The translations under genes and the position numbers were made by a program. A stretch of DNA of 64,000 bases from Ophiura sarsii (lineage: Eukaryota; Echinodermata; Ophiuroidea; Amphilepidida; Ophiuridae). Positions 371 to 54,662 of the stretch are shown here, one piece after another (position 1 is the first letter of the stretch; each line of letters begins with the position of its first letter). A model generated the notes under the pieces. It saw nothing but the letters and a program-made list of their open reading frames with translations. It was not told the DNA's origin and did no database searches. The DNA lies in the NCBI GenBank assembly GCA_035610835.1, contig CM069442.1, positions 2,839,353-2,903,352 on the forward strand, in the 5' to 3' direction.

Positions 371-571
371 AACTATCTCCGCAATCAGAACAACAAAACC
401 AATTACAACCTGGTGACAGAAACCCTTCAGTTTCTGGACTGCATATGCGGCAGTACTACAGGAGGCCTTGGTCTGCTAGGCCTCTACATCAATGATCAGA
501 ATGTAGGATTGATAAATCAAACTCTAGAAACACTGTGTGAATACTGTCAAGGGCCATGCCATGAAAATCAG
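371..571 (+). CDS. ITPR: ITPR exon 1 of window: RIH-associated domain, first half
   Basis: 67 complete codons (phase 0 at both ends), from NYLRNQNNK to GPCHENQ. The [14 protein letters not shown] block is a signature of the cytosolic RIH-associated alpha-solenoid region of ITPRs, which carries ligand-induced motion towards the pore. The acceptor is cag at 368-370 and the donor gtgagt starts at 572. Two short open frames overlap this exon, but only the frame giving [11 protein letters not shown] is conserved. Confidence 0.97.
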
Positions 572-3500
572 GTGAGTTTCGGTTTCAGTTTCAGTTAATT
601 TACCACAAAACAAACATGCAATGAAATACATATATAACACTGCGGTACTGTAGCATCAAGGGAAGGAGTTCAGTGTTCCCCACCCCACCCCCTATTTTTG
701 CCAATTTGACATTCTATGCAGTGTGTGCCCATACATCACCGTTCAGTGAAAAACTACCTTTTTTACAAATTTTTACCCAAGCAAAACATTTGCATTTGAA
801 TACAGGTGGTTCCGCAGGATGAAAATATATGAATGTAAAATGTTTTCAAAAATATGGGTTTAAAAAATAAATATAAGGAACATTTTGCTTTGAAATGTCT
901 TAAAATAATGTTGATCTTATCTGATCAATACGTATCAGGGAAAATGAGAAAAATAATGTCTTGTAACAAATGTGTTGATATATTCACAATGATACTCTGG
1001 CGGAGTGACACAATGATACTCTGGCGGAGTGACAAAGTCCACATCAACATTGACTTTTATCTTTAAACAAGACATACAAATCATATTACTGTAAAAGTGC
1101 ACATTTACGCGCGTGTAATTTTTTGTGCTTTGCACATTTTGAACAATTTTGCTTGTTTTTATTTTCACGATTTTGAGCTTCATTTCATAGACCTATACAA
1201 AATGAATATATTTGCGTATTTTTATTTTTGTGCTCGCTAATTTTAGCGTGAAAATGGCGAAAATAAATGTAGCGCAAAAATGTCCACTTTTACAGTATTG
1301 AAATTTGATGCGCTGCAATTATCTACTAAATAGAATATTTCTACCTTTTTCAAATTAAAGGAATCAAGTTAAATTGATTCATTAATGATTTGACCTTTGT
1401 CAACTGATTTTGATCTGATGTAACAGAACGCCATCGCCAACCACGAGTCCAACGGTCTAGACATCATCATCGCCCTCATCCTGAATGATATCAATCCGTT
1501 GGGTAAAGAAAATATGAAATTGGTACTTGAACTCAAGAATAACGCCTCCAAGCTATTACTGGCCATCATGGAAAGCAGACATGATAGCGAGAATGCTGAG
1601 AGGATATTGTATAATATGAGTCCAAAGCAACTGGTAGGTACTTTGACCCGCTACAGGGTGACCCAAATGTTTGATACCTTTTTTTAAAGCTTTATAACTC
1701 TCTTAGAATGATTTACAGTACCAAACAGAAAACATATTTGGACAGAGAAAACTTATTTTGATTGTGATACCAAACTTGATCCCTTCTCTGAGTTCCCTTA
1801 TTATAAAACACACCCTGAAAGGTATGATCACATAACTCACAATACCATACAATTGTTCACTTTGCAGAACGCAAGTAGTACGTCGCTGTAATCACATGCT
1901 GCATGTTCCTCACATTCCATTTAAGTAGATTTTTGCAAAAAAGGCTCTCACTTGACAGCAAGGATTGAGATCAAAGGTCACTAGGGGTTTAGTTATGATG
2001 TTATTTTTTTAACATTTGTATGATACACCATTACCCAGCGTAGTGTTGTTTTCATCCAGTTGTGTAACGGTTGACTATAAGTAAGTGTCCTGAGTCCAAA
2101 AGAAGAAAAAATAGTTGACTTGCCCTTTCCGACCGACCCGAATTTTCGGAAATCTAGGGTCGCTTTTTTTTTTTTCAAAGTAAAAAAAAAAAAAAAAAAA
2201 AAACCTCTTTTTTTTGTTGAAAACATTGAAAGAAGCACATTACAATAAAGAAAGATGAAAACGTGTTATTGAGAAGTATCTGCTTGTTTAAAAATAAGAA
2301 AAAAAATCCAAAAAAAAATCCAAAAAAAAATCATCTTTAAAACGTGTTTTTGTGTAGTATCGCCGTTTCAATTTAAAAATAAAAAAAATCCGACCGTCAG
2401 ACTCGGACTCTTAGTCAACTTTGTTTGTTTTTTGGCCTTATATGTGGCTTCATTTGTACATTAGATTTTGTAAACTACCTGCTAATCTGTCTTTTGGTTT
2501 GTTTTGTGTTTGAAATGGCATGAAATTGGTGGATTGTTCTGAACTATATTGCTGCTATTTCTCACAGGTTGAAGTGATACAACAAGCCTACAAGCAAGAA
2601 GACATAGACAGGGATGATGATGATGAGGGAGGTGATGATGATGATGAATCCATATCACCAAGAGAAGTAGGACATAATATATACATCTTAGCTCATCAGG
2701 TAAGTTATGCCTTATTGGTCCGGTGGGATGGAGATGATACAATAGTGTCGTTCTCTTCTGGGCAGTGTGTGTTGCCTTTTGGAGTCTTGTCATGGAATTA
2801 TAATTCCTATCACCTTCCTTTACCTTAGGTGCATCTCTACTCTCAATCCAGGGGAGGGTACATATGTGTCGCTGATATGGATCGCATTTTTACCTTCTAC
2901 TATTATGATCGATTGTTTGCTACTGTGTGGATGAGTCTGTTTATTATCATAATTCTACTATTTACATCGGCCATTTTTTGTAATACCACTATCAGTTGGG
3001 TCAGTTTGTAGTAAGATGACCATGCCAGTTGGTCAATATTTCGGCTCCCTTGAAGCACGGAACATGAGCTTACCCGAGAGTTGACATACACTGTCTGAGA
3101 CCAAGGATTCCAGGGGAATTCACGTTTATGATGGCTTATTTTCATAGGAATTACTCAAACCCCATTTCGAAGCTTATCGGGAACGACGGACAAACATGTT
3201 TTTGGCCCATCAGTCTCTATACTGCCACCTATGAGAATCTGTCCGAGCCCCTACCCCCCCCCCCCCACACCCCTTAGGCTTGCCCCCCCCCCCTCCCCCC
3301 CCCCCCCCCCTAGGCTTGACCCTTTCTTGTAGGATACACTATCTGCCATCCATCCACCATCAACTCTCATTAGCAGACGACATTACAATCGTATCATCCA
3401 GATTGTCTCATGTTTGCCTTCTCAATTTCCAGCTTGCTCAACACAATAAAGAGTTAGCTGCACTACTAAAACCCAGTATACAGAGTGATGTACATGTTCC

Positions 3501-6500
3501 ACAACCACTGGACAAAGCATTAGAGTACTATGCAAGTCATACAGCACAGATTGAGGTAAGGAATGAAACAAAAATATGGGTTGGTCAGTTGGAGCTTTTT
3601 CATTTCTTTCTGTCTCCATCTCTTCATCAATTGTAATTAAGACCGTGATCAGTCAAGTCATTCTCCAGTGATTTCAAGCATTCAAATTTATTTGACCTCT
3701 TCTGGATAGTAACATAAACTTTACAAGTCCAGCATTTTACACATAAGGCGTGTAAAAAATGTCCCATGTGAAACATACTTGTTCTCTTATTGTCCATGAA
3801 AGATATAAAGCTTGGATATGAAATAAGAATATTGATGTTAAGCAATCTTTAATGTATCATATGATTTTTTTAAATTCATTTTGGAGTTTTTGTTATCAAA
3901 TTATGGCAAATGTACTCGGGCATGTCAAATTCAGCTTTGGCCACTTTTCATGCGCAGAGAACTCTTTTATTACAATCGTCATTGTAATTGAGCATAGTTA
4001 ATCAAATCAATAATAATTTACCTACTATACTCAATAGTAGAGGGTGTACTTCCGTATGGGTAAAACCCGAGAAATACAAAGAATGTGCAGTCGGGTGTGC
4101 AATGTAGTAGACCAACAAGGTCGATAGCAGCTGTAGACACGTCCGTCGCCACTGCTGTTATTTGCACAGCTGGATCCTGTGAGCTGCTGTGATGTTGATA
4201 GTTCAATCTGAGACAAATATATTATCATTTTATCCATGACAAACCACAGAATATTTGAATATTAGATTATTATAAACAGTATCCTATAAATAATCAATGG
4301 AATCGCAAATGTATTATTTTTTCAGTTGGAAATCCAATTATTATTTTCAACAGTGGGTTTTGGGGGTGAAATTTGGTGGGATAAAATGTATTTAATAGAG
4401 GACTAATACGACTTAGCAACAGTCTGTTTTTTTAAACAAGCAACATGGGATGTATTTTTTTAAACTTAAATTTATTTGCCCTAAGGCGACAAAAAGAACC
4501 AACCTGTTCTACGGGCAAACCAACCTCTCAGGTTCAAAAATCAAGCTCAATAACCGTCAGTATGCTGTCGGGAAATTATTTTGGATCATTTTCAAAATAT
4601 TTCTTTAAAAAAATGTGTCGGTCAGTCCCGTAGGTCCCATAGAACAGGGGGTGGGGGGTATTTCTTCGCCTAATGGGACACTTTTTTATATCCGGTATAT
4701 GTGTATGTGAATGATGCAGCAACGCCACTGTATCATGGAAGTTAAATAAACTATAGCTTTATGGTAAAAATAGCTTATAGTAAGAGGGGTTACTATATTA
4801 TATAGGGGTTATTTATGTTTGTTCATGTTGGTTTATGTCGCAACTTGGCGCTGATTTAGCTGGTGCCTGGACGTTGCATTGTTTAATAATGTATTTAATT
4901 TGTAATGTTGTTACAATTCAGTCGGTTGGCTGTGATGACAATAAAATTTAGACCTTTATTATTTTTTTAACAATTTGTTTAGACTTCCTTGGTGAATTGA
5001 TCACTATTAGGTCTAGTTGTTTACTTTTACTCTTTGGACAGAAAGTTACAATTACAGTGTTTTTCAAACCATGGTTTTAACTAGTTGTGGATCATTTTCA
5101 ACCCATCTCATTTCCTACTAATAAGATTTGATTTGATTTTGCAATTTGCTTTTTAAAATAAAAATTGATCAGAATTTTTCTCAATTTTACCATTTTTACC
5201 TCTCAATTGACTAGATTGTGCGACAAGACCGCACCATGGAACAGATAGTGTTCCCCAAACTACAGGTGTGTGAATTCCTCACCCCAATGACCAAAATCAA
5301 GGTGTACACCAAGGCAGAGCAGGATGAACAAGGGAGTAAAGTATCAGACTTCTTTGAGCGCACAGAAGAGATGCTAGAGGAGATGAAATGGCAGAAGAAA
5401 CTAAGAGGTAAGTAGACTGAGTCCTTGTAGTCCCTCTATGGTTCCATCCCTTACGCAATGTTGTGACAACTAAATTGAGGAATGGGACTATTTTAGACTT
5501 AATCTCTCAGTCCCTTGATAGGGGCCATCTTTAATAATGGCAGACCAAAACCGAGGAATTTGGAGAACATTTGAAGCTCACAAGTAAGTAGACTATATCC
5601 CATAGTCCCTCTATATACCTACCCTTGTAAGTGTTGTGACAACCAAGTTCAGGAGTGAAACTGTTTCCTTTCAAACTTGGTCTCTCAGTCCCTCTATGTA
5701 GTCGCAATCTTTAAAAATGGTAGACCAAATCAAGGGACTGGGAGAACATTTGAAGCTCAGATGTAAGTAGACTATATATCCCTGCAATAGCTGTATATTG
5801 TAGCCATCTTTAAAAGAATTGTTGGACAAATGAGTGTACTGTCCACAAGATTGTTACAATTCATTCACATTCACTATAAATGTGCCCAACAATTAACATT
5901 AATCTATTGCTCTTGTTCTCTTTCAGCCAAACCATTGCTGTCTTTAATTAGTCATAACGTGACAAGATGGAAGATGATCTGTTTCAATCTAGCCATACTC
6001 GTCAACTTCCTCGTGGCATTCTTCTATCCATTTGATAATAAGACTAGAGGTAAGAGACTGTTTCAATCTAGCCATACTCGTCAACTTCCTCGTGGCATTC
6101 TTCTATCCATTTGATAATAAGACTAGAGGTAAGAGACTGTTTCAATCTAGCCATACTCGTCAACTTCCTTGTGGCATTCTTCTATCCATTTGATAATAAG
6201 ACTAGAGGTAAGAGACTGTTTCAATCTAGCCATACTCGTCAACTTCCTCGTGGCATTCTTCTATCCATTTGATAATAAGACTAGAGGTAAGAGACTGTTT
6301 CAATCTCGCCATACTCGTCAACTTCCTCGTGGCATTCTTCTATCCATTTGATAATAAGACTAGAGGTAAGAGACTGTTTCAATCTCGCCATACTCGTCAA
6401 CTTCCTCGTGGCATTCTTCTATCCATTTGATAATAAGACTAGAGGTAAGAGACTGTTTCAATCTAGCCATACTCGTCAACTTCCTCGTGGCATTCTTCTA

Positions 6501-9500
6501 TCCATTTGATAATAAGACTAGAGGTAAGAGACTGTTTCAATCTCGCCATACTCGTCAACTTCCTCGTGGCATTCTTCTATCCATTTGATATAAGACTAGA
6601 GGTAAGAGACTGTTTCAATCTAGCCATACTCGTCAACTTCCTCGTGGCATTCTTCTATCCATTTGATAATAAGACTAGAGGTAAGAGACTGTTTCAATCT
6701 CGCCATACTCGTCAACTTCCTCGTGGCATTCTTCTATCCATTTGATAATAAGACTAGAGGTAAGAGACTGTTTCAATCTAGCCATACTCGTCAACTTCCT
6801 TGTGGCATTCTTCTATCCATTTGATAATAAGACTAGAGGTAAGAGACTGTTTCAATCTAGCCATACTCGTCAACTTCCTCGTGGCATTCTTCTATCCATT
6901 TGATAATAAGACTAGAGGTAAGAGACTGTTTCAATCTAGCCATACTCGTCAACTTCCTCGTGGCATTCTTCTATCCATTTGATAATAAGACTAGAGGTAA
7001 GAGACTGTTTCAATCTCGCCATACTCGTCAACTTCCTCGTGGCATTCTTCTATCCATTTGATAATAAGACTAGAGGTAAGAGACTGTTTCAATCTAGCCA
7101 TACTCGTCAACTTCCTCGTGGCATTCTTCTATCCATTTGATAATAAGACTAGAGGTAAGAGACTGTTTCAATCTCGCCATACTCGTCAACTTCCTCGTGG
7201 CATTCTTCTATCCATTTGATAATAAGACTAGAGGTAAGAGACTGTTTCAATCTAGCCATACTCGTCAACTTCCTCGTGGCATTCTTCTATCCATTTGATA
7301 ATAAGACTAGAGGTAAGAGACTGTTTCAATCTCGCCATACTCGTCAACTTCCTCGTGGCATTCTTCTATCCATTTGATAATAAGACTAGAGGTAAGAGAC
7401 TGTTTCAATCTCGCCATACTCGTCAACTTCCTTGTGGCATTCTTCTATCCATTTGATAATAAGACTAGAGGTAAGAGACTGTTTCAATCTAGCCATACTC
7501 GTCAACTTCCTCGTGGCATTCTTCTATCCATTTGATAATAAGACTAGAGGTAAGAGACTGTTTCAATCTAGCCATACTCGTCAACTTCCTCGTGGCATTC
7601 TTCTATCCATTTGATAATAAGACTAGAGGTAAGAGACTGTTTCAATCTCGCCATACTCGTCAACTTCCTCGTGGCATTCTTCTATCCATTTGATAATAAG
7701 ACTAGAGGTAAGAGACTGTTTCAATCTAGCCATACTCGTCAAATTCCTCGTGGCATTCTTCTATCCATTTGATAATAAGACTAGAGGTAAGAGACTGTTT
7801 CAATCTCGCCATACTCGTCAACTTCCTCGTGGCATTCTTCTATCCATTTGATAATAAGACTAGAGGTAAGAGACTGTTTCAATCTAGCCATACTCGTCAA
7901 CTTCCTCGTGGCATTCTTCTATCCATTTGATAATAAGACTAGAGGTAAGAGACTCGGTCTACTATAGTTTGATCAGCTCCAAATTGGCGAGAAATAGTCG
8001 GTTTTTATCTCTCTGCCTGCAAAAGTTATCCAAGCGTACGTGCGCAATTATGGCTACACGCACACAGTTTTGACCGCACGCATGATACACAGTGTGTGTT
8101 TGTTGCCTTCAGGTTCGCCCACGTCCTATTGTATTAATTCGCTGCTCTAATGAGGCTTTGCCAATTTGGAACTGATCAAACTATAGTTTCAAATCTATTC
8201 CACCACCCCAGTATAATTCCATCCTTGCCCAATAGTGGCCTAACATATCCTTGATTGTTTGACATGGGCACATATTTATGTAAAGCAAGGAGGTAATAAC
8301 AGTGCAAATTTTCAACAATTATTAGTTGATATTGGCGCATGTATGCAAAGTAACTGGGTGATATTGGTGCACATTTTCACCACGTAACATGCCTGGATGC
8401 AGCTGTCACACAAGAGTGTGGTTGGCACCCGGCAAGCATCAGAGGCTCAATAAACCTGCTCAAACTGGTTTATGAAGGGGATTGTAATTGGATGGAAGTC
8501 CGGAAACTGTTGTAAAATTTGAATTTCAAATTATAATTGGATCCACTAACATTTCAAATAAAAACATTGTATACAGTCTTGGGATAAGATTTTGCAACTT
8601 CTTTTATGTGTCAAAATCAAAACTTCTGTCACAAAATAATCTACCATCTATTCCTCAGTGGTAGTGGTACTGAATTCTTGTTACAAAAACACTATTTGTA
8701 TTTCTAGATATTGACCCCAAGTTATCAGGACTGATCTGGACTACCATGATATTTTCATTGGTGTCAATCATCATGCTGCCTAATCCGTCTGGTATCAGGA
8801 CGTTTGTTGTGTCCAGTGTGTTACGGATGATATTCTCTGTGGGAATCGAACTGACGCTCTTCATGCTAGGGATAATAAATGTAAGTATCTAAAGCAGTGA
8901 TCACTATTATTAATGCTGAAGAGAGGTGTTTTTGTGCCTTAATAAATCTGCCCCGACCTATCTCATCAATGAAATTAGTTTAAAACCTGCTCTCTCCAGC
9001 GGTCCTGTTACAAGATCTGCCCAGGACAAAACCCTCCTTGTTATCCCTGCTTGCAAGAAGTCCATTGGTGACAAAGCTTTTGCAGTTGCTGGACCTTCTA
9101 TCTGGAACCGCCTGCCACAAAGTGTCCGTGAAGCCACATCTGTCAACCAGTTTAAGAAGTTGCTTAAGACTCACTTATTTTAAAATATTTCTCTGTGTAT
9201 CTCATTACTATATGCTGTATACTGAATGTTGGATGATTTTTGTTTGTTTGTGGTTGTTCTGTTTTTTGTGCGTTTAGATCTTTCATTGAATAAGCGCGTT
9301 ATAAACTCTAGTATGTATATGTATGTATGTATGTGTCTACACATCCATTTTAGTATGCTGGGCATCATGGTTACTCAGCTGTCAGTACCTGTACAGGTAT
9401 TATATGCCTTAGTACCTGTATGAGAACTGTATAGTACAACCAAAGTAACCGCACAGTGGTACTATGTAGCTAGCTACTTTGCTGGTACTTCACTGGTACA

Positions 9501-12500
9501 TTAGTACCATACAGGTACTTTGCATATAGTACCCATACAGGTACTTAGCATAAAGTACCCACACAAGTACTTTGCATACAGTACCCATATATATAATTAC
9601 TTGGCATACAGTACACATACAGGTACTTTGCATACAGTACCCATACAGGTACTTTGCATACAGTACCCATATCGGTACTTTGCATATAGTACCCATACAG
9701 GTACTTTGCATACAGTACCCATACAGGTACTTTGCATACAGTACCCATACAGGTACTTTGCATACAGTACCCATACAGGTACTTTGCATACAGTACCCAT
9801 ACAGGTACTTTGCATACAGTACCCATACAGGTACTTTGCATACAGTACCCATACAGGTACTTACATACAGTACCCATACAACAGAGTAACCATAATACCA
9901 GACATAAGAAAATGGATGTGTAGTCATATTTTCAAAAGTAAAATATTGAATGTTAGGTTTCATCTTTACGCTTTCCACACGACAGAGACGTCTGCAGACG
10001 GCATTCCAAAATGTCACAAAATGTTTCAAAAATTTCAATACCATATTTGGAATCACCATGAGAAATGCATTACAATAAATACTAATATACCTAGTATTAG
10101 ATCAGTAATCCTTGAGATAGACCTTGAAAATTGTGAAAGGTTTCTGACAAATCTGTTTAATGATGGTAAAACTAATAGCCGTGTGGAAAGTGTTAAAGCT
10201 ACATTTAGCATTATGAGTTGAATCGAATGCCATAATCTTAAATTGTAGGAAAATCATGATAATAGCAGATAACATTATTTATTTGGATGTCATTTCATTA
10301 TGTGGATGTTTTTCTCCTCAGGTTGGAGTGAAGTGTACCTTCTTAGTGAGCTTCATAGGTAACCGTGGTCTATTATCCAATAGAAACATAGCCAATGTAC
10401 TGATGGACTTTGGTGTCATATATCATCTGGGCTATCTAGGCATGTGTCTACTAGGACTCTGTGTACATGAATTCTTTTATAGCATTTTGGTAAGTTTATA
10501 TCATCTGGGCTATCTAGGCATGTGTCTACTAGGACTCTGTGTACATGTCATGTATAAACAATATCATTAATTAAACTAATGTGACTCAACATGAGTAAAT
10601 GAGGCACAATGTGGCAGTAGTTAATTTGATTTTAAGAGCACAAATGTGGGACACGGTCATAATAAGTCAAATTCATAAAAAATCATATTTCTGATCTTTG
10701 ATACATCTTGTATCCAATCAGAGACTCAAATTCATGAAAATATAGAGTGAAACTACATTTTGAGTATTTAATTTTCATTTACTTCATTGATTTGTTAACA
10801 AAACCAAACACATTCATAACACATTCTTCATTTACACATTCATAACTTAGTTATAAATGTTATATAACATTGACTTTGGTACCAAAATGTCCTCTAATGT
10901 CTACATATTATCATGATATAAATAACTCAATATTCATATATATCCCTCATTGTGCCTCATTTAATCACGTTGGGCCGCACATTGTGCCTGTTTCATTATT
11001 GATCAAGGATGGTTGTGATTTTGTCCCATATTGTAGTTGCTGGACGTAGTGTACCAAGAGGATACGCTACTCAACGTCATCCACTCTGTGACACGTAACT
11101 GGCGTTCCATCGCGTTGACGGCTGTCCTGGCCATCATATTGGTCTATCTCTTCTCAATCGTGGGCTATCTGTTCCTACAAGATGACTTTGTGTTGCCGGT
11201 AACGCGCAAGTCTACTCTTAAAATACTTGGTCCGGAGGTAGAGGACATGGAGATCAATGATTGTAAGTCTTTTTATTCTTGTACACAATTGTTTATTCTG
11301 CATAAAGGGTCATCCTTAAAATAGTTGTATTCCAAAGTTTGAGTTGCATAACTCGAATGGTTCTTATTTTAGAAACACAAGGTGACATGAAGTTTGCCCA
11401 TTATTATTAGTACACAAACTGGCCGCTGCATTTTGTTCTATAACGTCTAAATGGAACATATCTTGCGCCAAACATTTTACAGAAATAATGAGAAAATATG
11501 GGATATCTTCTGATATCAAAATATGTTGATGGGCAAATAAGGCTAAGTGATCGGAACATCCACCTTTTTTAAAGTAATGAAAAAAAAATCCAAATATAAC
11601 AAATATTGTACCTACTCAGTGGAAGCTATAGATCCTTAGATGACATCACTTGTAATGGAAGGATTTTCAAGTTACAACTTGAAAGGGTAAAAATCTATTT
11701 TGTATTAAAGAATTTAATTTTCCAGATTACTGATGGCTGTATTAAAGCTAGCATTCTTTAAACAAATATCATTTTAGCATTACCAACGCTACCTCCAAAT
11801 CCAGTTGAAGAGAATTCAACAGTGTCACCTGTGAATATTACACTGACCTCGTCTGACAAGACATGTCCAGCTGATGGCTGTCCAAAGGGAGAGGAAACTG
11901 ATTTATTCAGTAGTATAATCAACAAGTTTGCAACAGGCAGTGATGGAAAGCCAGGTAAGATTGGCATTTTGTATTCGCACACATTTCCTGGCTGTTTTCC
12001 TCCAAAAGTGTGCTCATCATAATGACCTATTATAGTGGAGCCTAATCGAAGTTTTTGAGGCACTTACCAGTCCAAAATGCTGTATGTGTGTGTGTGGGAG
12101 GGGCTGTCTGTATGTTACAATTTATGTTTAAAAAGAAGAAGTTTTTTGTCTCATTTGAAAAGTTGGAAGTCCAATTGGAACCGTTATTATGTTTTGATGA
12201 ATGAATGTGGGAAAATATTGGATCCAAAACATAATAGTGATAAAATTTGATGCTTTACGCCCAATATGGTCAAAGGTCACATACCACTATTTTTTCTACT
12301 TACGTGTTTATACTACTGGATGTCAACGATTGCTAACAATACAACATGACATAAAGCATCCTTCTTTCTCTCCATGTACACAAACAACTTCTGTGACCTT
12401 CAAAGGCGCAACATGCTATCTGTGGATTGCTTATCTTCTTTATGTGCTATGCTTGTGTCAAAATGAAGCAACTACATTTTAGTTTTCAGTTCTAGTATTC

Positions 12501-15500
12501 TATAGTTCAGTCAGTTCCAAATTGGCGATCCTCCTTGCAGCAGCAAATCAATATAGAAGAGCGTGGGCGCACTTAAGACAGCATTACGCAACATATAAGA
12601 TGTCACTCTCATTCCCAGAAGCGTTAAATCTGTAGGTATAGACGATGTCACCTGTAACATTACAGCAGCCAAGCAAACAAAAGCTTGCCTGCCAGTGTGC
12701 GCGCAAATTGACAACCAAACAAAAGCTTGCCTGTCGATGTGCGCGCAAATTGACAGCCAAACAAAAGCTTGCCTGTCGATGTGCGCGCAAATTGACAGCC
12801 AAACAAAAGCTTACTTGTTGGTGTGCGCGCGCATTCAAAGGAGGTGTCCATCATAAACCATACACTAAACCAAAACCAGAAACAACAGCAGTCAATGCAT
12901 GTTCCCCCATGGAAGGAATGGAACCAGGCACTTTTCACACATGCTAGTCATACAGGTGTGTGCGAAACAGACAGGGTATCGGCACCATGTTGCTCCAATA
13001 CAACATTTCAATAGAGATAATCATCCCTCTATTAAAGATCTATGGTTAAATGTGATTCTCCCCCATCCCTCCCCAGATAACATCACAGCGAAAGTTGAAA
13101 ACAAGAAAATCCAATTTCTTCATCTATTGCTTATTTCTTATTTCACTATTACAGTTGTCGAACCCCCTAAAGTGGAGCGTAGAGCAGTGATGAGCACTGC
13201 CGACAACGATGATGATGATGATGAAGTAGAGAGAGCTTGCGAAACACTGATAATGTGTATAGTAACCACCCTGAATCATGGAATCAGAAATGGTGGCGGC
13301 ATTGGAGATGTGCTGAGAAACCCATCAAGCAAGGCGAGTTATAATTATAGTAAAACGTCAGATAAAGCCTAATCAGATCAGGATCGGTGGAAATATTCCT
13401 ATCAATGATGTACCCCACCAATAAATAACTTGGAAAATTGGCTGAAAAAGTGATTTAAATACATTAAATGAAGACTAAAATGAACAAATTCTGTAGTAGT
13501 AGCTGGCCGATATGGTCGTCATCATTGACAAGATCATCCTTACGCATGCGTGTGTGATCGTGCTTCGGCTTTATTGTATTGTTTCCGAAACCCGATACGA
13601 GTGACGTAATGCCAATAACATGTGCTCGCACTTATTGTTAAAGGCGCGGTTCAACACATGTGGATTAAGCCTCCGATTGACCAAGCTGCGCTCTCTGATA
13701 AATAATGTGGTTGTTTTTATGATTAATTAAATACCAAATACGAGGGGCATTGTTATTCAGATATGAATTATTTTGATGCTTGCGGGATTTGTCAGGCTTT
13801 CACCGGGGGGGGAATGATGCATGGTGCGGCCATGCACGCGTCGATATACATTGTATTGCAATTTGTAATGAATTGTAAGTGAATGGGGAATGTGCGGAAA
13901 ACTTGAAAAGCATGTAAAACCCATTAAAATTTATATCGTTTCTTGTCGACATCTAAAAAAAAAATTGACATGTCGAAAGTATGGAAAATATTGCAACAAT
14001 CGACACATACAACAATCGATAACAGCACTAATAATAAGTCACATTCATAAAAGGTCTTATTTTTGAGCTTGGATACATCTTGTATCCAGCCAAAGACTCA
14101 AATTTATGAAAATAAAGAACTACATTTTGAGGTATTTAATTTTCATTCGATCCATCGATTTGTTATTAGGGGGGACTCAAGGAAGTTTTTGATTTGATTT
14201 TTTGAATTTTGTGAGTGCTGTAATTATTGAACTATTAATCAAATGCGAATAAAAGTATACATTTTTGGAAAGGAAATGGATCAGAGAATCCAAATTTGGC
14301 TTCAAATTTGACCAAAAATGTTGATTTCAACATTTTTGGTCAAAATTGATGGGGACTCAAGGAAGTTTTTGATTTGATTTTTTGAATTTTGTGAGTGCTG
14401 TAATTATTGAACTATTAATCAAATGCGAATAAAAGTATAAATTTTTGGAAAGGAAATGGATCAGAGAATCCAAATTTGGCTTCAAATTTGACCAAAAATG
14501 TTGAAATTGATACCAAATTTGGATTCTATGATCCATTTCCTTTCCAAAAATGTATACTTTTATATGCATTTGAGTCATAGTTCAATAATTACAGCACTCA
14601 CAATTTTTTTTTTTAAACTTCCCCTCAACAAAACCAAAACTTTAAACGACAAAACTTGGCAATTTGTATTTGATGTTTTGAAACAAAGTGATTTAAAAAA
14701 ATCTGTAACTTTGGTTAGGAATGTGATGTGATATAACATCAAATTTGGTACAAAAATGGTCCTTAACCCTCGTCCTACTGAGCCTTTTTTGTAACACGGT
14801 TTACTAAGGGATGCACTCCCCCCCCCCCCATGATATAATCCAAACAGATGCAGAGTATGCTTAGTTTGGTACCATGGTATAGTAAGGGGTCTCCTATTTC
14901 CATTCATACCACAACAAGTACAAACATCCCACACATGACGTCATAAACATGGCTAACCTTAAAGGGCAGTTGTATTTGTAAGAACAAAATTAAAATTTTC
15001 GCCAAAAAAATTCCAAATATCGTAACTTCACCAGGTTTTTGGCTTTTAAGTGAGGGAAATAATGTTTCTAACATAAATGTCCATGTGCAAATTGGCCGAT
15101 TTGAGGTTATCAATCATTTAAAAATTGACGGTAATGACATCAAGTTATTTTTTTCTTTTTGGGCGTCCACTCCATCTCTATAGGTCCTGTATTATTTAGA
15201 GAATAAAGGTATTGTTTTTAGACCGTACCCGTGTTATATTGTCTGACATAAATGCGGACGATAGTACGACACCGCAGGCGGAGTTGTTCTACGCAAAAAA
15301 TAATACTATCGAACGCATTTATGTCAGACAATATAACACGGGTACGGTCTAAAAACAATACCTTTATTCTCATTATTAAACAATCATACTTAAGACATTT
15401 ATCAAAGAAATAGGTACATTTTATTGTCCACATTTGACAACTTTTACCCCCTGCTAGGATCGAATAGCCCACAAACATTCCATCCAATCACATGCGATGA

Positions 15501-18500
15501 GTAAACCATGCGTAAGTGTCGCAGCGCCGGCATAAACGCAGGAAAGCGCTAAAGACGCACTGCAGAAGTGCGCGTTATGGAGCAAACCACGCATTGTGAA
15601 GGTCGGGCGCACTGTTAAAACGTAAGCCCCACCTCCCTGTGTTCTATTGTCTCATCTTGATGTCGCCGATTTCTCTGAGAACCAATGAGATTGCTTAAAC
15701 TTTCTTAGCTGTTTAAGAATTATTATTATAGAGTGATGCCATCTAATAAGATTCAAGTCTTTATACTATATATTTTTCAAAATGGTGATTTTTAAATATT
15801 GTAAGGTGACAACCACCTTAAGGCCAAAATAAATCAATTGTTGTGTTGTTGCCCTTAAGTGAATTTTTTATATGGGTTGGTAGGTAGGCTTTTTTTTCTC
15901 ATAGGTAGGCAACAATTTATGGATTTAAAAGATAACTAATTGGCGCGCCTCTTTTCACAAAAAAATGAGGTTTCAGCATGTTAAGGGAATAAAGCAAAGC
16001 TTTCAAATGAGAACTCAAGCGTAGTCAATCGCGTCCCATCTAGTCCCCTGAACCAAAAATAAAAGGTCAACAAAATAATAATAAGCTTACTAAAAAAATA
16101 AAACTTGTCAGCTAAATCAATCTTATTTAACGCAAATTTATAGTGGATATTCACTTGAAATAGGTTTATTTAGTCAATCTTTGCATTTTTAACTCTTGTG
16201 CTTGCTAAAATTGTGATTTTCGCCGCGGATTTTCACTTCGGTGTTTGCCAGTCGTCCATCTTGGAAAAGGTTGGACACATTGTCAACAAAAGATGGCGCC
16301 CTTACAATCAGCCCTGGGCATGTTTGGAGAAATTTGAGAGGTATGGTATTATACCACTTACAGAACAAAATGCTGCACTCTATAGTTAAAAAGTTGTAGG
16401 ATCAATCATTAGTTGAAACCCTTTCTCTTTTTCCCCTATGCCTACAGGAACCTCTGTACGTAGCTCGTGTCATCTATGATCTACTATTCTTCTTCATAGT
16501 TATTATTATAGTCCTGAATCTCATCTTTGGTGTCATCATTGACACGTTTGCTGATCTCAGGAGTGAGAAACAACACAAAGATGAGGTGCTAAGGAACACC
16601 TGTTTTATATGTGGTATGTACACATTATTTCAAGTACTGTTCAAATTGGACATTTTCGCGTGTGTAATTTTTCGTGCTTTGCACATTTTGAACAATTTTA
16701 CTCGTGTTTATTTTCTCGATTTGAGCTTTCTTTCAAAGACCTACATACAAAAATGAATATATTTGTGTGTTTTTTATTTTTGCGCTTGCTCACTTTAGCG
16801 CGAAAATAAATGTAGCGCGAAAATTACCACTTTTACAGCTTTCAGCATTACCATTTAGCAAGACACTTTTTAACTTTATGTACAATACATTTTCTTACAT
16901 TAAAAGGAAGTGTTTTCTGGAGTGCTAATTTATCTGTGTGTTCAGAAATTGGATAATGTCAAGTGTCGCCCATACATAATATCAACTCACTGAGATATAC
17001 CAGCAACATTTTGAAGCACCAGTCAGGATTTGAACCCGGGACCTTCCGCACAAATGTTGAAGGTGCTAGCGTATAGACCAAAAGATAACTTCCAGTCAGG
17101 TCAATGACACTAACAAACATTGTCTATTTGACAGTAACAGTTCTAGACCATACAAATATTTGTCAAATAATTTCTTGCTTAATATATATATACACAATGA
17201 TATTTGAATGATTTTTAATTTAGTTAGACTCTATTCAAATCTTGTGTCTTTCTCTGTTATTGTCTGTGGTCTACATACAGCATTACAAAGATCTGCTTTT
17301 GACAACAAGTCTATTTCATTTGAGGAACACATTAAGGAAGAGCACAACATGTGGCATTATCTCTACTTCATTGTCCTGGTTAAAGAAAAAGATCCAACAG
17401 AATTCACAGGGCCAGAGAGTTATGTCTATAACATGATCAAGGTAGGTTTATCATATGATCACGGTTGGTTTATCACATGATCACGGTTGGTTTATCACAT
17501 GATCACGGTTGGTTTATCACATGATCACGGTTGGTTTATCACATGATCAAGGTTGGTTTATCACATGATCACGGTTGGTTTATCACATGATCAAGGTTGG
17601 TTTATCACATGATCAAGGTTGGTTTATCACATGATCACGGTTGGTTTATCACATGATCACGGTTGGTTTATCACATGATCAAGGTTGGTTTATCACATGA
17701 TCACGGTTGGTTTATCACATGATCAAGGTTGGTTTATCACATGATCACGGTTGGTTTATCACATGATCACGGTTGGTTTATCACATGATCACAGTTGGTT
17801 TATCACATGATCACGGTTGGTTTATCACATGATCAAGGTTGGTTTATCACATGATCACGGTTGGTTTATCACATGATCACAGTTGGTTTATCACATGATC
17901 ACGGTTGGTTTATCACATGATCAAGGTTGGTTTATCACATGATCAAGGTTGGTTTATCACATGATCACGGTTGGTTTATCACATGATCACGGTTGGTTTA
18001 TCACATGATCAAAGTTGGTTTATCACATGATCAAGGTTGGTTTATCACATGATCAAGGTTGGTTTATCACATGATCACGATTGGTTTATCACATGATCAC
18101 GGTTGGTTTATCACATGATCACGGTTGGTTTATCACATGATCAAAGTTGGTTTATCACATGATCAAGGTTGGTTTATCACATGATCACGATTGGTTTATT
18201 ACATGATCAAAGTTGGTTTATCACATGATCAAGGTTGGTTTATCACATGATCAAGGTTGGTTTATCACATGATCAAAGTTGGTTTATCACATGATCAAGG
18301 TTGGTTTATCACATGATCAAGGTTGGTTTATCACATGATCACGGTTGGTTTATCACATGATCAATGTTGGTTTATCACATGATCAAGGTTGGTTTATCAC
18401 ATGATCAAGGTTGGTTTATCACATGATCACGATTGGTTTATCACATGATCAAGGTTGGTTTATCACATGATCACGATTGGTGTATCACTTGATCAATGTG

Positions 18501-21500
18501 CACATGTTATCTTTACACAACCATTTCAATAACAAAATAGCATTTTTAGTGATGGCAATTAACAGTCAAAATGTATAGACATTTATCTGTTAAAATTAGT
18601 AATATTTAATTGCCCATATTTATTTACTTTTACCTCTGTTTGTATGGAGTAACCCACGAATATTCCATCCAATCCCATGCAGAGAGTAAACTATACTTAG
18701 GCAAACAAAAACAACAAAAAAGTTGATTTGCCCTTTCTGACCGACCCGAATTTTCGGAAATCTAGGGTCGCTATTTTTATTTTTTTTATTTTTTCAACAA
18801 CAAAAAAGAAGCAATATTGAAAGAAAGAAAAGAAAAAAATGAAAGAAGCACATAACAATAAAGAAGGATGAAAACATGTTTTTGAGTAGTATCTTCTTGT
18901 TTAAAATTTTTTAAAAAATCATCTTTAAAACGTGTTTTTGTGTAGTATCTCCCTCCTGTTAAGATTTTCGGAGTAATTCTGTTATACCCTTCACAGAGGT
19001 ATTCATAGTGCATAATTTTTAAGAACGACTCATACTACCGATGTAGGTGTGTAGGGTATAACAGAATTATGCCAGATTTTCAAAAATCAAAACAAAAAAA
19101 AATCCGACCGGCCGACCCACACTCTGGCCCTGAAACGGCAAATCAACTTCTTCTTTTTTTTGGCCTTACCACACACCAAGCATGGGTGATCTAGTTACCA
19201 CACACCAAATGTGGGTGGTCTAGTTACCACACACACACCAAGCGTGGGTGGTCAAAATGCTCAAGTTAAGCTTGGCATACCTACCTGATTTAAATTGTGT
19301 CCTATAAAAGTCACCGGTTTTTATATGAGATCGTTCAAACTGCCCTAGCTGTTCAAGAATTTGTATTAGTTAGTAGGGGAAAATGCATGTTACAATGGTT
19401 TAAATTTGTTTTTAACACCCTGTATGATTTGTCCACAATTTGCTCCCCATATCATTCCGGACTTTAACCACACCTCCATTGTATTTGTTACATATTTCAG
19501 GAAAAGAATCTAGATTGGTTTCCTCGTTTACGAGCCATGTCTCTTGCAGCTGATGAAGGAGCAGATGAGCAGAATGAGTTACGAAACCTCACCACGCAGC
19601 TAGAAAGTACCAATTCATTGGTCAAAGTCTTATCAACACAACTGTCTGAATTAAGGGATCAGGTAAGATTTGATAGCTTAATAATAATAAACCATACTTA
19701 TTAAGCGCACTCCGTCGCAAGACCCCATAGCTTAATAATAATAAACCATGCTTATTAAGCGCACTCTGTCGCAAGACCCAATAGCTTAATAATAATAAAC
19801 CATGCTTATTAAGCGCACTCTGTCGCAAGACCCCATAGCTTAATAATAATAAACCATGCTTATTAAGCGCACTCTGTCGCAAGACCCCATAGCTTAATAA
19901 TAATAAACCATGCTTATTAAGCGCACTCTGTCGCAAGACCCCAGTGATAGCTTAATAATAATAAACCATACTTATTAAGCGCACTCTGTCGCAAGACCCC
20001 ATAGCTTAATAATAATAAACCATACTTATTAAGCGCACTCTGTCGCAAGACCCCAGTGATAGCTTAATAATAATAAACCATACTTATTAAGCGCACTCCG
20101 TCGCAAGACCCCATAGCTTAATAATAATAAACCATGCTTATTAAGCGCACTCTGTCGCAAGACCCCAGTGATAGCTTAATAATAATAAACCATACTTATT
20201 AAGCGCACTCCGTCGCAAGACCCCATAGCTTAATAATAATAAACCATGCTTATTAAGCGCACTCTGTCGCAAGACCCCAGTACGCTGAAAAAGTACAAAA
20301 TATGAACAAAGATACAAAACATTATAAAGTAATTTGCTGAAAGAGGTGAGTCTTGAGCGAGCTCTTGAATTGCTGCAGTGATGTGTCATTTCTGACATGA
20401 GATGGGAGCCGGTTCCAGAGTTCAGGAGCTGCATGAGGGAATGATCTTTGGCCGTAGGTGACAGTGTTAGTTTTCCTCCGTTGTAAGATGACAGATGCAT
20501 TTGACCTAAGAGTGCGTGTGGGTTCCTTGATGGAAATAAGGTCGCATAAGTACTTTGGAGCCTGGTTATTTAGTGCTTTGTATGTTAAAAGCATAAGTTT
20601 AAAAACAATACGGCTCTCCGCAGACAACCAGTGAAGATATTTAACACTGAGCTTACCCCTCTTAATTGTACCCCACCTTTCCCTCCTTCCTTACCCTGCT
20701 CCCACTTATCTACCTCTCCTCTCTTACCCTCTCCTCCTTTTTACCTTACCCTCCCCTCCCCTTCCCCTCCCCTTCCCCTCCTTTATTACCCTCCCTCATT
20801 TCTAACCTATCCCACCTGTTTCACTAACATCATGTATTGTCTAAGCTCCCTCCTGTCATAGAAAGCAACAATTTATTGGTCAAAGACTAAATCAACACAA
20901 CTATCAGAACTAAGAGACCAGACAAGAGACCAAATTTGGCACCTTTTCATTTGTTTACCCTCTGTCTGGAAGTTCTACAGTAGAGGGTGATCAGTTTGTC
21001 ACGGACGGACATTTTTGAAAACATTTGAGAAAACTGCCTATAAAAAGTAACTACTAACATTTACAAAAATGTTTTATGTTTTATGTTGAAGAGCATCATC
21101 AACTCTATTGAAATTGATAAAAAAATTAGTAGGTGTGGTTTGTTACTAAAAATAGAATGAACAAAACATTTGCGTCACGGACGGACAAGATAGAAATAGG
21201 GTTCTTTACTTTTATCTACTCTTTTTCTGTTTCTTTCTAAGACATTAGTTACTCCACAATTCTTTTCCGGCTAAACAGTATCTAAGATATCTGAGATATA
21301 TGACTTGATTACCTGATACACAGCTGGTGAAAGCTGACCATTTTTTTAACAAGAGAGGGCTGACAATTTGTGTCACGGACGGACAATTTTGGGCGTCACG
21401 GATGGACGCAAATGTTCACCACAAGAATAACTTCAAAATCACTTTTTATTCATACTTTGCATGAAGTTTTTTGTGAAAAAATGACATCATATACTACAAA

Positions 21501-42235: not shown

Positions 42236-42959
42236 CATCATGATTGTCTATTTGGTTCTAGAATAAGAAGAAATGTGTTTTTCTTCCATAGACATAAATA
42301 TAGGGAGCAATGCATTTGAATATGCCATATTTGAAACTAACCCTGAACCAAAGTCCCATGAAGATAATGTCAGAACCAAAATTCACATATATTCTACTAA
42401 TTTGTTCATTGTTGAGTTTCTGTCAAACCTGAATTTATTCATATTCCAGTGTTAATGAAAATGGTGATGTTATTGCTGCGTATTAACAACGACCTGTTGC
42501 GCGCCATCGATCAACATCAAGAAGCTGTTCTAATATTGTTGGACATGACTGCGGCATTTGACACAATCGACCACTATCCTACTTGACCGATTGTCTAAAC
42601 GCTATGATATCTGTGGCACTGCCCTTTTGTGGTTTACATCTTATTTGGATGGTCAAACACAGCGTTTTGTCATCAAAGACTCAGTGTCAGATCCTGTATC
42701 ATTGAACTGTGGTGTTCCACAAGGATCAGTTGCCGGCCCAATCAAGTTTGTAATGTATAGTGCCCAAATTCAAGAAATAATTTCTTTGCATGGCGTCAAT
42801 AGTGTTTCGTATGCAGATGACACCCAGTTATATATCATGTTTCATCCAAATGAACGCTGCACTTCAATCAGCAAACTTGAGAAATGTGTGAACGATGTGA
42901 AGTCATGGTCAATCATGAACAAACTTGCGCTAAATGACAGCAAAACTGAAATAATACAT

Positions 42960-43245
42960 TGTGTATTTGTTTGTTTGTTTGTTTTGTTTGTTTATTTACA
43001 CAGTCGGTCCATAGGGACACACGCTTGGGTCCTGAAGGGACCATGCTCAAGCAAAATGCTCAGGCCAGGCTTAAAAAGCCTATATAAGCATGCTGGCTGA
43101 ATGAAATGAAAGTTAGAAAAGATGGAAGAAAAGAATGAAGTAAAAAGAGCCACTTCCAACGAATAAAGTTAACAATTTTGCTGTCAGCCTTGGACAAGAG
43201 AAAAGAATAGTCTTGATCCAATCTCATTTGCCACACAGGCTTAAT
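42960..43245 (-). mobile_element. SINE-like insertion inside the LINE
   Basis: The LINE frame breaks after TEIIH and resumes at SRFLTADP. The intervening about 285 bp begins with (TTTG)n, the complement of a CAAA tail, and contains ggaccatgctcaagcaaaat and gtcggtccatagggacac. A tail at the left end suggests a minus-strand SINE or short retroposon. No clear A/B boxes were found. Confidence 0.6.
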
Positions 43246-43577: not shown

Positions 43578-43805
43578 AAAATGTACACATATCACCTCAC
43601 CTTCATCGACTGGCTCCCCATATCACCTCACCTTCATCGACTGGCTCCCCATCAACAAATGGATTATCTACAAAATGTACACATATCACCTCACCTTCAT
43701 CGACTGGCTCCCCATCAACAAATGGATTATCTACAAAATGTACACATATCACCTCACCTTCATCGACTGGCTCCCCATCAACAAATGGATTATCTACAAA
43801 ATTCT
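43578..43805 (+). repeat. 63-bp tandem triplication inside the LINE frame
   Basis: Unit aaatgtacacatatcacctc + accttcatcgactggctccc + catcaacaaatggattatct + aca, 63 bp, three copies plus a part copy. It repeats the residues THLTFIDWLPIN... in frame. The expansion arose inside an already dead LINE. Confidence 0.92.
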
Positions 43806-50049: not shown

Positions 50050-51715
50050 GTTTAAGGGTACTGTTTCATCCCGACTAATGTGTGACACTGTGTCAGGTAG
50101 TGTGCCAAATGCAGCCTTTTACATGATATTTTGCCTATTGTTATCTTAATTGTTCATCCTGATTTATGTGTGACACTGTGCCAGGGTTGCCTAAATACTT
50201 TATGTACGATATGTCATTGTGCCAGATACAAAATACTTACGTGATATTTGGACTTTTTAATATGTTATATTAATTGTTCATCCCGACTTATGTGTGACAC
50301 TGTGCCAGGGCTGCCTAAATACTTTATGTACGCTATGTCAGTGTGCCAGATACAAAATACTTACATGATATGTTTACTTCTAATATGTTATCTAAAATGT
50401 TTCATTTCGACTTATGTATGACACTGTGCCAGGGCTGCCTAAATACTTCATGTAGTTATGTCAATGTGCCAGATACAAAATACATGATATTTGGACTTTT
50501 AATATGTTATCTTAATTGTTCATCCCGACTTATGGGTGACGCTGTGCCAGGGCTGCCTAAATATTTTATGACCGCTATGTGCCAGATACAAAATATTTAC
50601 ATGTAGGCCCCTACACGATATGTTTACTTCTAATATGTTATATAAACGGTTTCATCCCGACTTATGTGGGACACTGTGCCAGGGCTGCCTAAATACTTCA
50701 TGTGGTTATGTCAGTGTGCCAGATGCAAAATACTTACATGATATGTTTACTTCTAATATGTTATTTAAACTGTATCATCCGACTTATGTATGACACTGTA
50801 CCAGGGCTGCCTAAATACTTCATGTGGATATTTTGACTTTTAATATGTTATCTTAACTTGTTCATCCTGACTTGTGTGTGACACAGTGCCAGGGCTGCCT
50901 AAATACTTTATGTAACTATGTCAGTATGCCAGATACAAAATACTTACATGATATTTTTACTTCTAATATGGTACATATCGTGTTTCATCCTGACATATGT
51001 GTGACACTGTGCCAGGGCTGACTATATACTTCATGTAACTATGTCAGTGTGCCATATACAAAATACATGAAATTTTGACTTTTAATATGTTATCTTTACT
51101 GGTTTATCTTAACTTATGTGTGACACTGTGCCAGGGCTGCCTAAATACTTTATGACCGCTATGTTAGTGTGCCAGATACAAAATACTTACACGATATGTT
51201 TACTTCTAATATGTTATATAAACTGTTTCATCCTGACTTATGTGTGACACTGTGCCAGGGTTGCCTAAATACTTCATGTAATTATGTCAGTGTGCCAGAT
51301 ACAAAATACTTACATGATATGTTTACTTCTAATATGTTATATAAACTGTTTCATCCTGACTTATGTGTGACACTGTGCCAGGGCTGCCTAAATACTTCAT
51401 GTAGTTATGTCAGTGTGCCAGATACAAAATACTTACATGAAATGTTTACTTCTAAAATGTTATTTAAACTGTATCATCCCGAGTTATGTGTGACACTGTG
51501 CCAGGCTGCCTAAATACTTCATGTAGTTATGTCAGTGTGCCAGATACAAAATACATGATATTTTGACTTTTAATATGTTATCTTAATTGTTCATCCCGAC
51601 TTATGTGTGACGCTGTGCCAGGGCTGCCTAAATATTTTATGACCGCTATGTTAGTGTGCCAGATAAAAAATACTTGCATGATATGTTTACTTCTATATAA
51701 ACTCTTTAAGTAAAT
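50050..51715 (+). repeat. 124-bp tandem array, about 13 units
   Basis: tgacactgtgccagggctgc + ctaaatacttcatg ... gtgccagatacaaaatactt ... cttctaatatgttat. The tgacactgtgcc word is at 50171, 50295 and 50419 (124-bp spacing); some units are shorter. Open frames (QGCLNTSC.. repeats) are artefacts of the array. Confidence 0.92.
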
Positions 51716-53935
51716 GTTAACACTTAGGTAATGTAAAGATCTACCGTATCATATATGAGTTAGGTTTGCCTGGCACAGTGTCATTTAAGTAAAACTAAAG
51801 ACAGCCTGCCTGGCACAGTGTCACAGTGCCAGAATGAATAAAGACTTTAAAAGTAAATGTTAACACTAAGTAATGTAAAGATCTACCTTATCATATATGA
51901 GTTAGGTTTGCCTGGCACAGTGTCATATAAGTAAAACTAAAGACGGCCTGCCTGGCACAGTGTCACGGTGACAAAATGAATAAGGACTTTAAAAGTAAAT
52001 GTTAACACTAAGTAATGTAAATATCTACCTTATCATATATGAGTTAGGTTTGCCTGGCACATTGTCATATAAGTAAAACTAAAGACGGCCTGCCTGGCAC
52101 AGTGTCACAGTGCCAGAATGAATAAGGACTTTAAAAGTAAATGTTAACACTAAATAATGTAAAGACCTACCTTATCATATATGAGTTAGGTTTGCCTGGC
52201 ACAGTGTCATACAAGTAAAACTAAAGACAGCCTGCCTGGCACAGTGTCACAGTGCCAGAATGAATAAGGACTTTAAAAGTAAATGTTAACATTAAGTAAT
52301 GTAAAGATCTACCGTATCATATATGAGTTAGGTTTGCTTGGCACAGTGTCATATAAGTAAAACTAAAGACGGCCTGCCTGGCACAGTGTCACAGTGCCAG
52401 AATGAATAAGGACTCTAAAAGTAAATGTTAACACTAAGGAATGTAAAAATCTACCTTATCATATATGAGTTAGGTTTGCCTGGCACAGTGTCATACAAGT
52501 AAAACTAAAGACAGCCTGCCTGGCACAGTGTCACAGTGCCAGAATGAATAAGGACTTTAAAAGTAAATGTTAACACTAAGTAATGTAAAGATTTACCGTA
52601 TCATATATGAGTTAGGTTTTCCTGGCACAGTGTCATATTTATAAGTAAAACTAAAGATGGCCTGCCTGGCACAGTGTCACAGTGCCAGAATGAATAAGGA
52701 CTTTAAAAGTAAATGTTAACACTAAGTAATGTAAAGATCTACCGTATCATATATGAGTTAGGTTTGCTTGGCACAGTGTCATATAAGTAAAACTAAAGAT
52801 GGCCTGCCTGGCACAGTGTCACAGTGCCAGAATGAATAAGGACTCTAAAAGTAAATGTTAACACTAAGGAATGTAACAATCTACCTTATCATATATGAGT
52901 TAGGTTTGCCTGGCACAGTGTCATACAAGTAAAACTAAAGACAGCCTGCCTGGCACAGTGTCACAGTGCCAGAATGAATAAGGACTTTAAAAGTAAATGT
53001 TAACACTAAGTAATGTAAAGATTTACCGTATCATATATGAGTTAGGTTTGCCTGGCACAGTGTCATATTTATAAGTAAAACTAAAGATGGCCTGCCTGGC
53101 ACAGTGTCACAGTGCCAGAATGAATAAGGACTCTAAAAGTAAATGTTAACACTAAGTAATGTAAAGATTTACCGTATCATATATGAGTTAGGTTTGCATG
53201 GCACAGTGTCATATAAGTACAACTAAAGACGGCCTGCCTGGCACAGTGTCACAGTGCCAGAATGAATAAGGACTTTAAAAGTAAATGTTAACACTAAGTA
53301 ATGTAAAGATCTACCGTATCATATATGAGTTAGGTTTGCTTGGCACAGTGTCATATAAGTAAAACTAAAGACGGCCTGCCTGGCACAGTGTCACAGTGCC
53401 AGAATGAATAAGGACTCTAAAAGTAAATGTTAACACTAAGGAATGTAAAAATCTACCTTATCATATATGAGTTAGGTTTGCCTGGCACAGTATCATATAA
53501 GTAAAACTAAAGACGGCCTGCCTGGCACAGTGTCACAGTGACAAAATGAATAAGGACTTTAAAAATAAATATTAACACTATAAAGTAATGTAAAGGTCTA
53601 CCTTATCATATATGAGTTAGGTTTGCCTGGCACAGTGTCATATAAGTAAAACTAAAGACGGCCTGCCTGGCACAGTGTCACAGTGCCAGAATGAATAAGG
53701 ACTTTAAAAGTAAATGTTAACACTAAGTAATGTAAAGATCTACCTTATCATATATGAGTTAGGTTTGCATGGCACAGTGTCATATAAGTAAAACTAAAGA
53801 CGGCCTGCCTGGCACAGTGTCACAGTGACAGAATGAATGAGGACTTTAAAAGTACATGTTAACACTAAGTAATGTAAAGATCTACCGTATCATATATGAG
53901 TTAGGTTTGCCTGGCACAGTGTCATATAAGTAAAG
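51715..53935 (+). repeat. 142-bp tandem array, about 15 units
   Basis: taggtttgcctggcacagtg + tcatataagtaaaactaaag ... agaatgaataaggactttaa ... taccttatcatatatgagt. taggtttg is at 51761, 51903, 52045 and 52187 (142 bp). The last is near 53902. Each unit has two cctggcacagtgtca words. Confidence 0.95.
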
Positions 53936-54059
53936 TCCTCAAATCATTGCTTTGATATGCATGGGTACGTTAAAATTCGAATTTGAGTATAAGAATGAAC
54001 TTACCTATTGATGAATCTTATTGTGAAAGCTTTAAAAGGCATACCAGAAACACAAAAGC

Positions 54060-54662
54060 TAAGATAACACATTAAAAGTCAAAATATCATGTATTTTGTA
54101 TCTGGCACACTGACATAACTACATGAAGTATTTAGGCAGCCCTGGCACAGTGTCACACATAAGTCGGGATTAAACAGTTTAGAAAACATATTAGAAGTCA
54201 AAATTTCATGTATTTTGTATATGGTACACTGACATAGTTACATGAAGTTAAAGTCAGCCCTGGCACGCACATAATTCGGGATGAAACAGTTTATATAACA
54301 TATTAGAAGTAAACATATCATGTAAGTATTTTGTATCTGGCACACTAACATAGCGGTCATAAAGTATTTAGGCAGCCCTGGCACAGTGTCACACATTAGT
54401 CGGGATGAAACAGTTAAGAAAACATATTAGAAGTCAAAATATGATGTATTTTGTATCTGGCACACTGACATAACTACGTGAAGTATTTAGGCAGCCCTGG
54501 CACAGTGTCACATATAAGTCGGGATGAAATAGTTTAGATAACAGAAGTACACATATAAGTCGGGATGAAACAGTTTAGATAACATATTAGAAGTAATCAT
54601 TTCATGTAAGTATTTTGTATCTGGCACATTGACATAGAGGTCATAAAGTATTTAGGCATTAA
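54060..54662 (-). repeat. Inverted copies of the 124-bp unit, about 5 units
   Basis: catgtattttgtatctggca ... atttaggcagccctggcaca + gtgtcac ... gtcgggatgaaacagttta is the reverse complement of the 50050-51715 unit. The two blocks face each other across the 142-bp array. Confidence 0.92.

Follow-up and report, generated by a model that had tools for sequence, protein, structure and literature searches.

A 25-copy minisatellite across an exon end and its splice donor in an echinoderm-grouping ITPR gene

When the end of a coding exon and the splice donor behind it stand in 25 tandem copies, which donor is used, and what becomes of the encoded protein? The question is raised by an ITPR gene in the 64,000-base stretch of DNA analyzed here (hereafter the window). 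The original prediction had noted the amplification and had treated the choice of the first donor as an open question. A view of the case as singular or unexplained was not supported, since boundary-spanning repeats of amphioxus, a human minisatellite with multiple donors and minigenes with identical donors of which only the upstream one is used are all known. The array described below is genuine and, although its copy number is high, it belongs to a class of structures already known.

The ITPR exons were placed by hand. On the plus strand, positions 371-19662 yielded 14 exons whose splice sites are plausible, the weakest calls being the acceptor of E10 (score −6.6) and the GC donor of E11. 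From frame and homology, E11 appears to be followed by a GC-AG intron (AAG/GCGAGT, 13334-13339). The 797-aa product of the 14 joined exons matched structures of IP3 receptor type 1, its best solved relatives, with 1029 bits. Both the channel region and the C-terminal part of the IP3 receptor are present in this product, and the earlier assignment of the amplified exon to ITPR is thus supported. PF08454 and PF00520 are Pfam domains precomputed for the homologues, not the outcome of a scan of the window protein.

Two homologue searches returned 337 proteins among 7986 scored candidates and 3304 proteins among 7981 scored candidates, and 120 matches of each set were listed, with no closely related species among them. 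Among the matches listed from the second search (best 120 of 3304), the highest identities were to the sea stars Patiria and Asterias (65%) and to the spider Stegodyphus (64%), with hemichordates at 63%, sea urchins at 62% and amphioxus at 61%; the first match by E-value among those listed was a turtle ITPR with 55% identity. These identities by themselves do not place the gene among animal groups. In a protein tree of 21 rows, built with 20 chosen relatives among which sea stars and urchins were the only echinoderms, the gene joined the sea stars and urchins with 100/99 support and an end branch of 0.49. Judged by this one protein and its 20 relatives, the DNA would come from an echinoderm whose class is not represented in the tree. 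An amphioxus origin was considered first, mirages being known from that group, and was rejected in view of the 61% identity and the grouping with echinoderms in the tree.

A tandem array with a period of 79, 25.0 copies, 98% matches and a score of 3847 was detected by TRF at 5979-7954 on the plus strand. When split at CTGTTTCAATCT, it resolved into 25 units arranged head to tail, all of which measure 79 bp except unit 8 with 78 bp. The 25-fold amplification predicted earlier was therefore recovered, as was its end at 7954; its start had been set 5 bp too early, at 5974. Each unit comprises 71 bp of exon end and 8 bp of intron start with the donor, so that the repeat crosses the exon-intron boundary as in amphioxus "mirages".

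Twelve of the 25 units are identical to the consensus. Two variants are shared between units, A/C at position 13 (C in 10 units) and C/T at position 34 (T in units 3, 11 and 19), and a C to A change is confined to unit 23. Judged by eye, the variants at positions 13 and 34 would both be synonymous (Leu) in a coding copy, unlike the unit 23 change and the unit 8 deletion. The unit variants recur at a lag of eight units, with agreement in 12 of 17 comparisons (P 0.0002 at lag 8; P 0.0008 as the best of 12 lags). Therefore, blocks of about eight units were probably copied in the past, and this order fits a real array assembled stepwise. An unstranded MITE-like element with 28-bp terminal inverted repeats, whose arms are 96% complementary, begins 6 bp past the array (7961-8187). 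An end related to it (77% over 74 bp) is present at 12500-12572 in the opposite orientation; this single end lies close to a 42-bp array at 12670-12830.

The exon concerned, E6, occupies positions 5927-6049 (plus strand, 123 nt); its designation as exon 6 stands as a number within the window and is not the true exon number of the gene. It has the acceptor ctctttcag/ and the donor GAG/GTAAGAGA, its frame is open and it aligns to ITPRs. Unit 1, whose exonic part consists of the last 71 bases of E6, would be the true 3′ end of the exon. We take the encoded segment to be S1 from the ITPR topology, which is consistent with the aligned region. The predicted 25 near-equal donors are indeed intact: GAG/GTAAGAGA is found in 25 of 25 units, from the first donor (6050-6057, plus strand), the putative authentic one, to the last (7945-7952, plus strand), and the splice signal is thus repeated in every extra copy. 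The 23-base donor context (12 exonic and 11 intronic bases) is identical in 24 of 25 units, the 25th differing at the last base only. The U1 duplex energy of these donors is −9.6 kcal/mol, inside the range of −5.4 to −12.3 kcal/mol obtained for the 14 inferred donors of the gene.

Joining donor 1 to the next exon, E7 (8708-8880, plus strand), in phase 1 gave a stop-free product without gaps relative to 8 of the 10 ITPRs compared; there is one gap relative to Limulus, and the Chelonia model has extra residues. All 24 later donors lead to a stop at codon 62 of the E6 frame, the TGA at 6112-6114 (plus strand) in unit 2, which is reached as soon as donor 1 is skipped. Both claims about the frame, that donor 1 alone keeps it and that read-through meets a TGA in the next unit, were thus correct. 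The intron upstream of E6 is 519 nt long; the downstream intron measures 2658 nt from donor 1 and 763 nt from donor 25.

How the first donor is chosen has a likely answer in work on competing donors. Where two identical strong donors were placed 52 nt apart in human minigenes whose introns measured 365 nt, only the upstream one is reported to be used, and when both donors were weakened the larger exons were mostly skipped (PMC9225289). According to the same report, the upstream site is preferred in 60% of human competing-donor events of near-equal strength, these being long-intron events, whereas over all such events the downstream site is preferred in about 60%, and short-intron events favor the downstream donor. 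Exon definition is described there as pairing the sites closest across the exon, acceptors included (PMC9225289). The short E6, with its 519- and 2658-nt introns, can be regarded as an exon-definition setting. From the identical-donor minigenes and the regular mRNA of the amphioxus cases, use of donor 1 is therefore to be expected, with the other 24 copies belonging to the intron, and donor 1 alone is probably used in the mRNA. The minigene analogy is a limited one, two donors in human cells being compared with 25 donors in the ITPR array, and IFI6 suggests that later donors could be used in principle.

We propose that the array began with a tandem duplication that by chance took in the 3′ end of the ITPR exon together with the adjoining 5′ splice site. 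Expansion to 25 copies would have followed by slippage or unequal exchange, in which blocks of about eight units were copied as well. Under exon definition the spliceosome would take the donor nearest the upstream acceptor, donor 1. Units 2-25 would then count as intron because they lie downstream of donor 1, and an existing intron would have become longer. With mRNA and receptor unchanged, the array would be a nearly neutral passenger. We infer donor 1 use, this mutational route and neutrality with good confidence.

The same features can be read differently. Since there are 25 equal donors and every later one meets the TGA, later donors might be used meaningfully, so that translation would stop just past S1, transcripts would be destroyed or the receptor truncated, and copy number would tune the receptor level; IFI6, after all, employs downstream repeat donors. 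We consider this improbable. Donors 2-25 would require exons of 202-2018 nt, compared to 123 nt with donor 1, the upstream site was exclusive in the published identical-donor minigenes, regular mRNA is reported for the amphioxus cases, and elsewhere in the gene, in the repeats at E5 and E13, the additional donors are weak and have not been kept. A milder variant, in which a minor, regulated fraction of transcripts is spliced from later donors and ends past S1, lowering or modifying ITPR output, with array-length alleles altering calcium signaling, seems to us slightly less probable still.

An array of this kind could also be an artefact of assembly, in its existence or its copy number. Tandem arrays are often mis-sized in assemblies. 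Moreover, an amphioxus "mirage" was judged to be aberrantly assembled in the genome draft (PMC3087553). However, the units hold shared and private variants in lag-8 order, and four other exons of the gene have local duplications of differing unit length and divergence, which makes an artefact about as improbable as a meaningful use of later donors. Finally, the motif CTAG/CC within the unit might act as an acceptor and create mini-exons of 57 nt, a multiple of three, each adding 19 residues of S1 in frame. Scored with a matrix built from the 14 acceptors of the gene itself, the site in unit 1 reaches 4.7, within the range of authentic acceptors (−6.6 to 10.8, leave-one-out). In the 14 other AG-bearing units it scores −0.5, a value that 41% of the remaining AGs of the locus equal or exceed, the AG is lost in 10 of 25 units, and splicing between neighboring units would need a 22-nt intron. 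We regard such cassettes as very unlikely; as a main reading they were rejected, given the ordinary score of the inner acceptor in those 14 later units and its loss from 10 of 25.

The closest counterparts of the array are the amphioxus "mirages", tandem repeats spanning boundaries in Adh3, the globins BflGb6 and BflGb9, and troponin C, which reportedly leave regular splicing undisturbed (PMC3087553, PMC3902484); the lancelet PGBD5 is described as having similar boundary repeats, two in one gene, of 60 and 108 bp (PMC3902484). Like them, the ITPR array is a minisatellite-like repeat across an exon-intron boundary that places extra splice signals in the intron. Reported mirage units measure 10-72 bp in Adh3, 150-160 bp in BflGb6, two haplotypes of which have 6 and 3 copies, and 157 bp in BflGb9, compared to 79 bp in 25 copies here. 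Mirages are described at both types of boundary, whereas the ITPR repeats are on the donor side only among 14 exons, and the ITPR gene groups with echinoderms, not with amphioxus.

The human IFI6 (6-16) minisatellite is also said to supply multiple splice donor sites, as reportedly found by Turri et al. in 1995. The array in ITPR resembles it in that repeat units carry donors; the IFI6 unit is much shorter (12 bp). Two downstream repeat units of IFI6 are reported to serve as donors, giving three mRNAs (PMC4526556; the case is also cited via PMC2572611), whereas in the ITPR array every later donor adds a stop, and the frame stays open with donor 1 alone of the 25. In human segmental duplications, variable minisatellites located at exon-intron boundaries are reported to affect gene structure, with novel introns in some cases and mostly with alternative transcripts in which the repeat stays exonic; such arrays are therefore not always silent (PMC2812944). 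Their units are given as 30 bp with 4 repeats on average, and new introns or exonic retention result, while in ITPR an existing intron would be longer (PMC2812944). Intron gain by tandem genomic duplication has been considered as well, for instance for the potato RdRp gene (PMC4974935), another within-gene duplication bearing on introns; no intron gain is inferred for ITPR. In a limited search of the literature on minisatellites at splice sites and exon-intron boundaries, no report of an echinoderm boundary-spanning minisatellite was found.

New here are the echinoderm-grouping gene and the presence of three further donors (those of E5, E13 and E14) and a stretch of E8 in local duplications. 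This points to an occurrence of mirage-like minisatellites beyond cephalochordates and to the ability of a single gene to accumulate several donor-side duplications. If donor 1 is used, the array would be well suited as a natural experiment on how donors are chosen, 25 equal sites competing within one intron compared to the two donors of published minigenes, and its copy-number alleles would form a dose series.

The other duplications were found by comparing bases 1-21200 of the window with themselves, on the same strand and with copies at most 2500 bases apart, exon positions not being used. Nine local duplications were detected at the standard setting. Donors are contained in four of them, at E5 (5397-5777), E6, E13 (17424-18499) and E14 (19601-19668, copy at 20859-20927); none of the 14 acceptors lies inside a local duplication in bases 1-21200. 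An intronic two-copy repeat at 2258-2391 appeared in the looser search only and is excluded from the nine. The donor-reaching duplications of E5, E13 and E14 were absent from the original prediction.

The duplications at E5, E8, E13 and E14 are all on the plus strand. At E5 (5215-5407), a degenerate duplication covers the donor (5397-5777; 75% over 210 bp by self-BLAST) with a spacing of about 177 bp. Its GTAAGTAGACT copies at 5408, 5584 and 5763 have U1 duplex energies of −12.3, −7.2 and −7.0 kcal/mol, the extra donors being weaker. In E8 (10322-10489), a 51-bp segment, 10419-10469, is copied into the intron at 10497-10547 with 100% identity; the segment ends 20 nt before the exon end, and the copy, which has no donor, begins 7 nt past it. 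The end of E13 (17281-17441) and its donor form the first unit of a 22-bp array detected by TRF (48.6 copies, 17427-18496), in which one of 48 pattern-matched units has a GTAGGT donor at −10.3 kcal/mol and the other 47 are at −6.5 kcal/mol or weaker. The 3′ end of E14 (19501-19662) and its donor have a decayed copy without GT at 20859-20927 (81% over 69 bp; 19601-20927 overall), and a 54-bp array (19673-20281) that starts 10 nt past the exon end lies between them. The equal donors of the E6 array, unlike the weakened extras of E5 and E13, suggest that this array is young or recently homogenized.

Whether duplications favor donors in this gene was evaluated statistically, with mixed results. 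Base-level shift tests of donor enrichment were not significant (p 0.52 and 0.25; 0.55 and 0.28 with the looser search). In an event-level simulation, devised after the pattern had been seen and with unit lengths chosen by the analyst, 0.50 donor-spanning events of 9 were expected compared to 4 (strict) or 5 (loose) observed, with P of 0.00066 for 4 and 0.000035 for 5 of 9, the fifth event (E8) having no donor. A donor-side bias is thus suggestive only, and the five donor-side duplications against no acceptor-side one may be due to chance. A claim of a donor hot spot was set aside, the shift tests being non-significant and the simulation post hoc. The closest-pair rule includes acceptors, and it therefore cannot by itself explain the absence of acceptor duplications.

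Tandem repeats make up 12713 of the 64000 bases of the window (TRF rows). One of them, an in-frame 63-bp repeat of 2.9 copies at 43588-43802, lies in a retroelement-like open frame with an RVT_1 match nearby (42549-43097); a Pfam search of the repeated frame itself (43588-43802) gave no match. Duplication is therefore possible without a splice site. A large satellite region extends over 50139-54543, where arrays with periods of 88-333 bp flank a 142/430-bp array and parts of the right side match the left side in reverse orientation.
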